From Treponema sp. (lineage in GTDB: Bacteria > Spirochaetota > Spirochaetia > Treponematales > Breznakiellaceae), in assembly GCA_031255615.1 (NCBI GenBank), contig JAIRSD010000104.1, positions 1-7,544 of the forward strand: a DNA stretch of 7,544 nt, given 5' to 3'. The notes under the pieces were generated by a model. It searched no databases, was not told the DNA's origin, and saw only the letters and a list, made by a program, of their open reading frames with translations. Shown piece after piece: positions 2,872-7,344 of the stretch; positions within the stretch are counted from its first letter, which is position 1, and the number at the start of each line of letters is the position of its first letter. The position numbers and the translations under genes are program-made.

Positions 2872-2959
2872 GGGCGCATCCCCGCCTGCGGCGGGGACCG
2901 GGCTATCCGCTCCAACAAAAACCCTGCGGGTTTTTATTCCGCTTCTATCCCTTGCGCGG
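2872..2959 (+). repeat. Palindrome-mosaic repeat, copy 1
   Basis: Three fixed blocks are separated by two perfect hairpins. Block 1 is GGGCGCAT (2872-2879). Hairpin 1 is CCCCGCC-TGC-GGCGGGG (2880-2896). Block 2 is 2897-2915, containing GGGCTATCCGCTCC. Hairpin 2 is AAAAACCC-TGC-GGGTTTTT (2917-2935). Block 3 is 2937-2959, containing CCGCTTCTATCCCTTGCG. Blocks 1, 2 and 3 (8, 19 and 23 bp) recur without a mismatch, inverted, at 4283-4290, 4241-4259 and 4192-4214. Both hairpins there have unrelated sequences. Confidence 0.9.
2917..2939 (+). terminator. Candidate intrinsic terminator inside repeat copy 1
   Basis: The stem AAAAACCC/GGGTTTTT with a TGC loop is followed by ATT, giving a T-rich 3' arm. 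It could end the omptin transcript about 120 bases after its stop codon, and by symmetry it could act on both strands. Only three G-C pairs anchor it, so strength is uncertain. If it is active, the promoter at 2814 would not feed the URO-D gene. Confidence 0.4.
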
Positions 2960-3050
2960 GCGCAAAACGGCGTCCCTGCCGTTTTGCGCCTTCGGAGTAT
3001 GCGCCTGCGGCGCATACTCCAACACGGAAACAGCCGGCATCCGTGCCGGC
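2959..3050 (+). repeat. Three consecutive perfect hairpins
   Basis: Directly after the mosaic repeat come a 13-bp stem GGCGCAAAACGGC/GCCGTTTTGCGCC with loop GTCCCT (2959-2990), a 12-bp stem GGAGTATGCGCC/GGCGCATACTCC with loop TGC (2994-3020), and a 7-bp stem GCCGGCA/TGCCGGC with loop TCCG (3033-3050). None is followed by a T-run. They are absent from the inverted copy at 4192-4290. Confidence 0.85.
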
Positions 3051-3079
3051 GGCGGGAAGGGCGGACAAGGCGCAGCTCT

Positions 3080-3107
3080 TTGATATATCGGAATATCCGG
3101 GTAATCT
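3080..3107 (+). promoter_or_regulatory. Candidate promoter TTGATA-16-TAATCT
   Basis: TTGATA (3080-3085) matches the -35 consensus at five of six positions. TAATCT (3102-3107), 16 bases on, is a modest -10. Transcription would begin about 30 bases before the URO-D start, downstream of all hairpins, giving a short simple leader. This is the best-placed promoter for that gene. Confidence 0.35.
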
Positions 3108-3130
3108 GAGATTGTTCCAAAAAATATTGC

Positions 3131-3136
3131 AGGAGG
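3131..3136 (+). promoter_or_regulatory. Shine-Dalgarno AGGAGG deciding the URO-D start
   Basis: AGGAGG sits eight bases before the ATG at 3145. It selects this start over an in-frame ATG at 3043, which lies in hairpin DNA and lacks a ribosome-binding site. Confidence 0.9.
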
Positions 3137-3144
3137 AATACAGT

Positions 3145-4182
3145 ATGACCAGGCATGAAAGAATCGCGGCGGCCCTTAAGGGGGAAGATGTAGACCGGAT
3201 ACCCATAAATGTATGGATGCACCATTCGGCGGAGGATCAGGATCCCCGGACCCTGGCGGAAACCCAGGTGGACTACGCGGAGGAATTCGACTTTGATTTT
3301 ATCAAGCTCATGCCCTTTGGACTTTACAGCGTGCAGGACTACGGGGCCAAGATCAACATCTACGCCCAGACCGGCAGGCCCCCGGTGGTTGCGGATCCGG
3401 GCATACACGAGGTCGCCGACTGGGGCCGCATTGAGCCCCTTCCCGCGTATTACGGAAGCTACGGGAAACAGGTCCAGCTTGCCCGCTACGCGGCCGCCTA
3501 CGGGAAAAAGAAGTTCCCGATTATCCAGACCATCTTCAGCCCCCTGACGACGGCCCGCAAGCTGGCGGGGGACCGGATTCTGGGGGACTTAAAGGAAAAC
3601 CCCGCGCTCTTTAAACAGGCCCTTGAAGCGATTACCGAAACCACCATCAATTTTGTCAAGGCGAATATCGACGCGGGGGTTGACGGTTTCTTTTTCGCGA
3701 CCCAGTGCGCCGTTTATGATTTTTGCCCGGAGGAGGTTTACCGGGAATTCGGCGAGTTCTACGACCTTAAAGTCATAGGGGCCTATAAGGACAAGACCTT
3801 TTTCAACGTGGTCCACCCCCATGGGACGGGTTGTATGTTTGAGCTTATCGCCAATTACCCCGTGCCCTGCATTAACTGGCATGACCGGTGGGCGGGGCCG
3901 GAAATGGGGAAGGCCCGGACGTTAACCGGCAAGTGCCTCATGGGCGGCCTCCGGGAAGTGCCCTTCTTCGATAAGGAGGGGAAGCAAACCGCCGAAAGCA
4001 TCCTGAAAACCGGTACGCCGGAGGAGCTTTTAACCCATGTGGCCGAGGCGGTTGAGGCCGCGTCCTGGCGCAAACTTATTATCGGCCCCGGCTGCGTCGC
4101 CGATCAGCATCTGCCCCGGGAGCAGCTCAGGGCGATTCGGCGCACGGTGGACGCCCTGCCGCCCAAGGGAGCAAAGGCTTAA
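3145..4182 (+). CDS. URO-D superfamily protein (HemE/MtaA-like fold)
   Basis: The 345-residue product belongs to the uroporphyrinogen decarboxylase superfamily, which includes HemE and the zinc-dependent corrinoid:coenzyme M methyltransferases (MtaA/MtbA). Visible family marks are RHERIAAALKGEDVDRIPI at the N-terminus, a D(F)DFIKLMP strand near 50-57, AGVDGFFFATQ (177-187), HPHGTG (224-229) and IIGPGC (312-317) before the terminal helices. His224, His226 and Cys317 sit where MtaA-type enzymes place His-x-Cys and Cys zinc ligands, so a metal-dependent methyltransferase-like role is possible but inferred. It is unlikely to be true HemE, as no haem gene is near. No corrinoid protein or MtaB partner lies in the window. 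The gene stands alone between inverted copies of the mosaic repeat. The start is set by AGGAGG; an upstream in-frame ATG would add 34 unlikely residues. Confidence 0.85.
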   Translation: MTRHERIAAALKGEDVDRIPINVWMHHSAEDQDPRTLAETQVDYAEEFDFDFIKLMPFGLYSVQDYGAKINIYAQTGRPPVVADPGIHEVADWGRIEPLPAYYGSYGKQVQLARYAAAYGKKKFPIIQTIFSPLTTARKLAGDRILGDLKENPALFKQALEAITETTINFVKANIDAGVDGFFFATQCAVYDFCPEEVYREFGEFYDLKVIGAYKDKTFFNVVHPHGTGCMFELIANYPVPCINWHDRWAGPEMGKARTLTGKCLMGGLREVPFFDKEGKQTAESILKTGTPEELLTHVAEAVEAASWRKLIIGPGCVADQHLPREQLRAIRRTVDALPPKGAKA

Positions 4183-4191
4183 CACAGCCAG

Positions 4192-4290
4192 CCGCGCAAG
4201 GGATAGAAGCGGAATTCCGCGCCCCCGCGGGGGCGCGGAATTGGAGCGGATAGCCCGGTTTTTTGCGGCTGCGCCGCAAAAAATGCGCCC
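4192..4290 (-). repeat. Palindrome-mosaic repeat, copy 2 (inverted)
   Basis: Read on the minus strand this has the same three fixed blocks as copy 1, at 4290-4283, 4259-4241 and 4214-4192, with no mismatches. The hairpin between blocks 1 and 2 is TTTTTTGCGGC/GCCGCAAAAAA with a TGC loop in plus-strand reading (4259-4283). Between blocks 2 and 3 is a perfect 30-bp palindrome (4213-4242), CCGCGCCCCC on one side. Neither resembles the hairpins of copy 1. Spacing between blocks also differs (23 against 17 nt, 26 against 21 nt), so a shared reading frame is not kept. It begins 10 bp after the URO-D stop. Confidence 0.9.
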
Positions 4291-6993: not shown

Positions 6994-7198
6994 ACACCAC
7001 CGGATGAACCTCCCGCAAGCGGCGGGGTATCTTGCAGGCGTTGCCAATTCTCCAACCGCCGCAAGGGGCGGGGGATGAGGCCCCGCTGCGAATAAAAAAA
7101 CAGGCGGGAACAGGGGGGGCCGCGAAGGCGCACCGGGGAGAACTGCGGCTTGCCGGGACACGAAGGAAGGGCCGCTCCCTGCTCCGCCCTTTCTGCGC
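6994..7198 (+). repeat. Degenerate direct repeat, unit 1
   Basis: In order it carries ACACCACCGGAT (6994-7005), CGGGAACA (7105-7112), AAGGCGCACC (7125-7134), a 33-bp block ACACGAAGGAAGG..CCGCTCCCTGC (7158-7190), and CCGCCCTTTCTGCGC (7184-7198). The same five segments recur in the same order in unit 2. Unit 1 has about 85 extra bases between the first two segments and 17 between the third and fourth. Confidence 0.75.
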
Positions 7199-7230
7199 CT
7201 TCTCCACCGGCGCGGTGCATTTCTTGCATC

Positions 7231-7344
7231 ACACCACCGGATAAGGGAAATAACCGGGAACAAGAATTTTAACCACCAAGGCGCACCAAGGAACACGAAG
7301 GAAGGACCGCTCCCTGCCCCGCCCTGCCGCCGCCCTTTCTGCGC
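7231..7344 (+). repeat. Degenerate direct repeat, unit 2
   Basis: The matching segments are at 7231-7242, 7255-7262, 7278-7287, 7293-7325 (31 of 33 bases identical to unit 1) and 7330-7344 (15 of 15). ACCACCAAGGCGCACCAAGG and CACGAAGG are a motif style I know as a dispersed repeat in intergenic DNA of several bacteria, though I cannot confirm its family here. Unit 2 contains a small GCC-repeat expansion at 7322-7334. Confidence 0.75.

Follow-up and report, generated by a model that had tools for sequence, protein, structure and literature searches.

Inverted Flavo-1-type repeats with exchanged hairpins on both sides of a URO-D family gene in Treponema

The window analysed here, a complete contig of 7,544 bases from Treponema sp., carries genes for an adenine methyltransferase, an omptin family protein, a URO-D family protein, MurJ and a glycerophosphodiester phosphodiesterase; the closest named relatives of its MurJ are Treponema/Spirochaetaceae proteins, many of them MAG-derived. 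The URO-D family gene is bracketed by two inverted copies of a short repeat, which share blocks without a mismatch and hold palindromes of unrelated sequence between these blocks. What kind of element keeps its blocks and its pairing but not the sequence of its stems, and does the gene in between play any part? A functional tie between the element pair and the URO-D gene was looked for and none was found. We judge that the gene lies there incidentally and that the copies do not form a functional unit with it; the best explanation is that they are two among many intergenic copies.

A preliminary description of the locus had reported inverted copies with shared blocks of 8, 19 and 23 bp and perfect palindromes in both gaps. 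The arrangement was confirmed, as were the two shorter blocks; the longest measures 24 nt. An inverted-repeat search pairs positions 2936-2959 with 4192-4215 and 2897-2915 with 4241-4259, both at 100%, and the 8-nt block GGGCGCAT/ATGCGCCC was read directly at 2872-2879/4283-4290. Because a 24-nt inverted match is perfect within 7.5 kb, the copies are truly repeated and not a product of chance. The features are listed below, with scores from R1, a covariance model of the three-way element built on 21 training sequences, and from the Rfam model of Flavo-1 (RF01705).

3127..4182, plus strand: URO-D family gene between the copies, with the start at 3127 taken from the gene caller; the longer frame 3043-4182 matches PF01208 (E 4.5e-25)
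2872..2959, minus strand: copy 1, three-way-junction Flavo-1-type element (R1 93.2 bits, as an R1 training sequence; Rfam Flavo-1 25.3 bits, E 0.06, at 2892-2966)
4192..4290, plus strand: copy 2, three-way-junction Flavo-1-type element (R1 84.7 bits, as an R1 training sequence; Rfam Flavo-1 40.3 bits, E 4.4e-6, at 4186-4264)
2936..2959, minus strand: conserved block 1, CCGCGCAAGGGATAGAAGCGGAAT on the element strand, 24 nt identical to copy 2
2897..2915, minus strand: conserved block 2, TTGGAGCGGATAGCCCGGT on the element strand, 19 nt identical to copy 2
2917..2935, minus strand: variable hairpin A of copy 1, AAAAACCC-TGC-GGGTTTTT, an 8-bp perfect palindrome (read directly)
2880..2896, minus strand: variable hairpin B of copy 1, CCCCGCC-TGC-GGCGGGG, a perfect 7-bp palindrome (read directly)
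4213..4242, plus strand: variable hairpin A of copy 2, 15-nt arms without a gap, 100%
4259..4283, plus strand: variable hairpin B of copy 2, 11-nt arms (read directly)

The palindromes are indeed unrelated between the copies in both gaps, with the qualification that hairpin A of copy 1 is perfect over 8 bp only and its stem is then extended via a T-G pair. On the element strand the layout is 5'-GCGCA-A-GGGATAGAAGCGGA-[hairpin A]-GGAGCGGATAGCCC-GG-[hairpin B]-TGCGC-CC-3', a three-way junction made of an outer stem, core helices and hairpins A and B. Single-strand folding of this strand gives z-scores of -3.95 for copy 2 and -2.23 for copy 1. R1, which includes both copies in its training set, places their boundaries exactly where they had first been drawn, yet the feature is larger than that, palindromes at about 2959-3050 belonging to copy 1 (see below).

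Across 21 elements, 91% of cells pair and 17 of the 27 pairs change on both sides, with a covariation of 0.384 (shuffles 0.124; slid structures at most 0.180). The alignments of 35 hits from more divergent Spirochaetota (two of them weak) and of 103 hits were fitted to the model and are hence biased in its favour: in the former, both sides change in 25 of 27 pairs, the core included, one core pair being seen as U-A, A-U and C-G (covariation 0.568 vs 0.144 in shuffles), and in the latter 21 of 27 pairs do so (0.406 vs 0.104). Covariation, for which a test on the intervals had been proposed, is seen relative to shuffles in all helices: pairing of the outer stem, the core and the two hairpins is conserved and the arm sequences are free.

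Both window copies match the Flavo-1 model over its full length (1-76), with conserved letters kept and core pairs covarying, and neither reaches its gathering cut-off of 42 bits. Sister elements exceed this cut-off in nine of ten genomes, and we therefore call the window copies a diverged variant rather than strict members. In this three-way-junction variant the Flavo-1 hairpin forms one arm: the core hairpin, conserved letters and internal loops are the same and Bacteroidia copies pass the cut-off, whereas the window copies score below it and possess an extra second hairpin and an outer stem. R1 matches seven of the nine Bacteroidia loci L311-L319, missing L311 and L314 as well as a Flavobacterium copy (L125), so that two forms, hairpin-only and junction, coexist. 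The Flavo-1 family goes back to a 2010 prediction of a structured RNA in Bacteroidetes (Weinberg et al. 2010, PMC2864571) and is still counted with the abundant sRNA families from homology searches (PMC9029176); the accessible portions of the literature naming Flavo-1 or RF01705 (PMC9723704, PMC2864571, PMC9029176) give no function for it.

The element is abundant. Scanning GTDB contigs for the exact pattern of both blocks returned at least 120 stretches, and among the matches listed 118 belong by title to spirochaete MAGs and 2 to Flavobacteriia; judging from isolate names, these spirochaete MAGs are presumably of termite gut origin. RF01705 matched in all ten genomes reached via pattern loci and in none of 14 control genomes. 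Its per-genome counts are lower bounds, with at most 150 candidates scored per genome: at least 150, 140, 131, 86, 80, 74, 15 and 15 in eight spirochaete MAGs, at least 68 in Flavobacterium sp. MC2016-06 and at least 6 in a Flavobacteriales MAG. The window copies are thus not the only two, six related spirochaete MAGs having 74 to 150 scored matches each (again lower bounds), and, as the preliminary description had expected, copies are numerous, with blocks that stay fixed and palindromes that differ (126 distinct elements). With 14 candidates scored per genome, R1 matched 40 of 296 Spirochaetota genomes; in genome G001 it gave 146 matches (genomes, contigs and loci are cited below by G, C and L numbers). 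RF01705 matched 24 of 60 Bacteroidia genomes, above the cut-off in 14. Related elements occur by pattern search in seven IMG/VR viral contigs, and no close copy of the composite was found on plasmids or phages at E 1e-3. An IMG/VR contig (82.5 kb; L004 1718-3006), GC-rich in look and not spirochaetal, has an integrase-like frame and two inverted elements that overlap open frames.

Several elements of G001 run on, at their 5' side, into more palindromes with fixed linkers (joints TGTTTCC and TGGAG..CTCCGA; loops ATGGAT/AGGGAY). Eight of these composites align with copy 1 of the window, in which one of their hairpins is missing and whose array extends to 3050 through three further palindromes.

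2959..2990, minus strand: further palindrome of the copy 1 composite, GGCGCAAAACGGC-AGGGAC-GCCGTTTTGCGCC, aligned with the eight G001 composites
2994..3020, minus strand: further palindrome, GGAGTATGCGCC-GCA-GGCGCATACTCC, from the alignment with G001 composites
3033..3050, minus strand: further palindrome, GCCGGC-ACGGAT-GCCGGC, followed by the linker TGTTTCC (3032-3026), from the same alignment

Of 40 pairs of adjacent elements, 33 are inverted, a count biased by contig ends; the figure is 13 of 14 after hand removal of pairs with an element less than 1 kb from a contig end. A mosaic of several palindromes in alternating orientation, the arrangement that defines BIMEs, is therefore present and the suggested likeness to REP/BIME in layout holds, the alternation being partly an assembly effect because G001 contigs tend to end 5' of elements. 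Contigs C301, C72, C66, C195 and others of G001 (L291-L307) often end no more than about 1 kb 5' of an element, within palindrome arrays, and such arrays therefore seem to disrupt assembly. The idea that the segment repeated 5' of G001 elements is a transposase was rejected, palindrome arrays lying there instead.

Hairpins turn over. Parsing of 125 elements gave 96 different strings for hairpin A and 107 for hairpin B, some of the latter clipped in parsing. Within single genomes the picture is more uniform: single-linkage clustering yielded a dominant hairpin A class in each of five MAGs (14/17, 32/45, 10/13, 9/12 and 6/9 sampled copies) and a dominant hairpin B class in four of them (14/17, 29/45, 10/13 and 6/9; 4/12 in G004), so that most sampled copies of a genome do share a hairpin A class; in part this is the outcome that the preliminary description had named as counting against it, the same hairpin sequences in most copies. 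For two A and two B classes, all four combinations were present in two of five genomes.

Comparison of related loci reveals how the change proceeds. At an orthologous element of G277 and G195 (88.8% identity over 760 nt), hairpin B has a longer stem and a T-A pair replaced, in compensatory fashion, by C-G. At a second site, the two genomes share the outer stem, hairpin B and the 3' flank (98.2% over 555 nt) but differ in the core, hairpin A and the 5' flank; at a third, the element in the syntenic gap has the opposite orientation. Around a VapBC cassette of G301, both flanking elements carry a different hairpin A, a 36-nt perfect palindrome, with core and hairpin B kept. From these comparisons, compensation and whole-module replacement both occur. 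The preliminary description, which had named replacement of entire palindrome modules as one of two possibilities, was therefore largely right, replacement not being the sole mode. G195 and G277 also contain a second, different multi-hairpin core module with the same outer stem and hairpin B design (G195:C2 about 100,200-100,340, i.e. L389 about 205-345; L372 about 420-520), possibly a sister element type.

Copies also mark places where genomes differ in gene content and order. All seven direct pairs less than 2.5 kb apart that we saw bracket small genes: VapBC in G156, G121 and G301, MNT/HEPN in G195, a RelE-family gene in G001 (L012), GNAT in G270 and, in G294, two genes with no Pfam hit above the cut-off. 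These amount to five cassette types, because the VapBC unit counts three times; in G156 and G121 its toxin gene looks shortened. One VapBC cassette recurs at different loci of three Treponema genomes (L222 8746-9574; L224 9007-9948; L219 9886-11064), 97.8-98.9% identical over 629-681 nt and with direct elements on both sides. Its outside neighbours are again toxin-antitoxin genes in two of the three loci. The two flanks of the MNT/HEPN unit of G195 recur in G277 (97% and 96% identity) with just one element between them, so that the gain or loss is of one cassette and one element copy, which G195 has and G277 lacks. The difference could also result from homologous recombination between direct repeats or, as the contig of G277 begins about 250 nt away from the element, from the collapse of a repeat during assembly. 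For the VapBC unit of G156, 59 genomes of the genus were searched for an empty locus; 13 gave some match and none was empty. A clean occupied/empty pair for a solitary element was likewise not found, either among these genomes or at the G277/G195 sites.

Inverted pairs, by comparison, surround ordinary genes: URO-D in the window, and elsewhere ketopantoate reductase, LysR, GGDEF, aminotransferases, Fur/rubrerythrin and FabG-like/ketoacyl synthase. Among the neighbours of low-copy elements, of which 25 of 104 families were listed, housekeeping genes are common, and cassettes are therefore a minority. PIN occurs in 3 of 68 such neighbours and in none of the 25 of 93 families listed for 70 control genes (70 of 161 available); general toxin-antitoxin enrichment beside low-copy elements was rejected.

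Does the conserved fold act as RNA or as DNA? Small RNAs or UTR elements, as implied by the Rfam type of Flavo-1 (Gene; sRNA), would fit the strong covariation and the sense excess between tandem genes (30 sense, 13 antisense). Yet orientation is mixed: among 99 elements with both neighbours called, 38 lie in divergent and 18 in convergent gaps, all gaps longer than 100 nt in spirochaete loci numbering 60 divergent, 106 tandem and 32 convergent. Copies number near or above 100 with different arms in almost every one, and in the F. psychrophilum transcriptome Flavo-1 lies sense or antisense to transcribed regions alike, with many copies outside them (PMC9723704). G-U pairs are also scarce: their share of pairs is 2.0% in hairpin A (70 hairpins) and 2.6% in hairpin B (80), compared with 11.2% in 14 tRNAs and 11.5% in 43 terminator-like hairpins; when whole elements are folded as RNA it is 5.5% for the element strand and 3.1% for the opposite one. 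As 161 of 162 spirochaete copies are clear of called genes (one overlaps a gene by more than 40 nt), low G-U, gene avoidance and mixed orientation together are signs of a DNA-level function. The evidence on the window element thus favours pairing at the DNA level over the sRNA gene of the Rfam label, with some room for RNA, and we regard a structured RNA as improbable. An immobile structural repeat, serving as a terminator or as a binding site of gyrase or a nucleoid protein and dispersed by nothing more than infrequent recombination, would suit the intergenic placement and copy 2, which starts 10 nt past a stop codon in a gap between convergent genes. For termination alone, however, there is no need of a conserved core or of an outer stem that covaries, and the divergent placement of 38 of the 99 copies and the cassette and synteny differences at elements speak against immobility, which we consider unlikely.

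If the repeat moves, which enzyme moves it? A REP-type element mobilised by a RAYT (Y1 tyrosine transposase) would be a hairpin repeat of high copy number in mosaic arrays with inverted neighbours, as is the case here, and REP/BIME and REPtrons share with it the high-copy intergenic palindromes, composite arrays and mostly inverted neighbours (PMC2817692, PMC6006769). Differences from REP/BIME are the absence of GT[AG]G (GTAG/GTGG) at the hairpin foot of both window copies on direct reading, the lack of a RAYT association and arms that are not conserved between copies; according to PMC6006769, subclass 2.6 and class 3 repeats are also without GT[AG]G. PF01797 (Y1 transposase) was found in 5 of 10 and 5 of 14 element-bearing genomes, and few Y1 loci have elements nearby (2 of 22 by a loose pattern, 1 of 17 by Rfam). 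A RAYT-like Flavobacterium protein, presumably subclass 2.6-like by its motifs, has relatives in 28 of 60 Bacteroidia, both with and without Flavo-1 (13/24 vs 15/36), and Flavo-1 was absent by Rfam from 20 RAYT-like loci of Bacteroidia. The searches for PF01797 in 24 element-bearing genomes and for the RAYT-like protein in 60 Bacteroidia thus gave no convincing adjacency or co-occurrence and no RAYT or Y1 gene flanked by the repeat, so the TnpA-REP or IS200/IS605 partner that had been proposed is not supported; because MAGs are incomplete, the absence of Y1 genes is weak evidence, and we hold mobility by RAYT to be quite improbable. Integron attC sites also combine a conserved single-strand fold and free arms with direct pairs around small cassettes, here toxin-antitoxin and GNAT genes, and integron integrases scored over the cut-off in 6 of 14 element-bearing genomes. 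The element differs from attC in its core, in having no R boxes, in not lying by an integrase and in occurring also as inverted pairs and solitary copies. The ends of attC sites carry GTTRRRY/RYYYAAC, absent from the window copies on direct reading; the repeats beside the three integrases examined have another sequence, and R1 had a single match, located 37 kb away from the integrase, in integrase loci totalling 205,741 bases. An attC identity was accordingly rejected and is almost certainly wrong. We take the repeats beside those three integrases to be attC-like; arrays of attC-like repeats lie next to integron integrases of Treponema genomes at L257 8430-15944 and L259 2237-11250, and the element model misses them. 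MITEs are likewise short, non-coding and dispersed with short inverted ends (here the outer stem), but the element keeps a three-way fold; the sites compared gave no clean occupied/empty pair at which a target duplication would show, and no cognate transposase was found. In all, the searches for Y1, RAYT-like proteins and integron integrases, in MAGs that are incomplete, found no recombinase or other partner enzyme.

The element is thus probably a dispersed, high-copy, intergenic DNA repeat of REP/BIME-like, recombining character, whose hairpins turn over and whose copies are junctions of cassette and synteny differences. Against it weigh the missing enzyme, the lack of a clean empty site, the other possible causes of the G195/G277 cassette difference, the sense excess, the 5.5% of G-U pairs on the element strand and the fact that neighbours of low-copy elements are in general not of cassette type. 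This reading includes a protein, encoded by the host or by a mobile element, that would recognise the folded single strand by its core and junction and not by its arms. As is thought for REP/BIME, we infer that the repeat would disperse and swap modules by recombination and/or single-strand transposition. More speculatively, and with rather low probability, Flavo-1-type elements might, rather than RNAs, be folded single-strand DNA recombination sites of an undescribed, integron-independent cassette system common to Spirochaetota and Bacteroidota, in which a recombinase would read the junction core, tolerate any arms, shuttle units consisting of one small gene and one element between direct copies, and swap hairpin modules from copy to copy.

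A family predicted as RNA since 2010 is here pointed to as a DNA element, which makes a 16-year-old question testable and cautions against counting Flavo-1-like families as sRNAs. The element is also a clear natural case of whole stems swapped under selection for fold.

The window contains other repeats. Its left end (1-310) is G-rich and repetitive (GGGTAGTAGTA...), without a convincing gene, and its gene-poor right end has a 50-nt direct repeat (7155-7204 and 7290-7339, 82%). Upstream of the omptin gene, a 55-nt direct repeat (1542-1596 and 1700-1754, 78%) and a hairpin at 1785-1801, CTTCAAAAACCGAAGTTTTTGAAG, possibly represent another repeat family.
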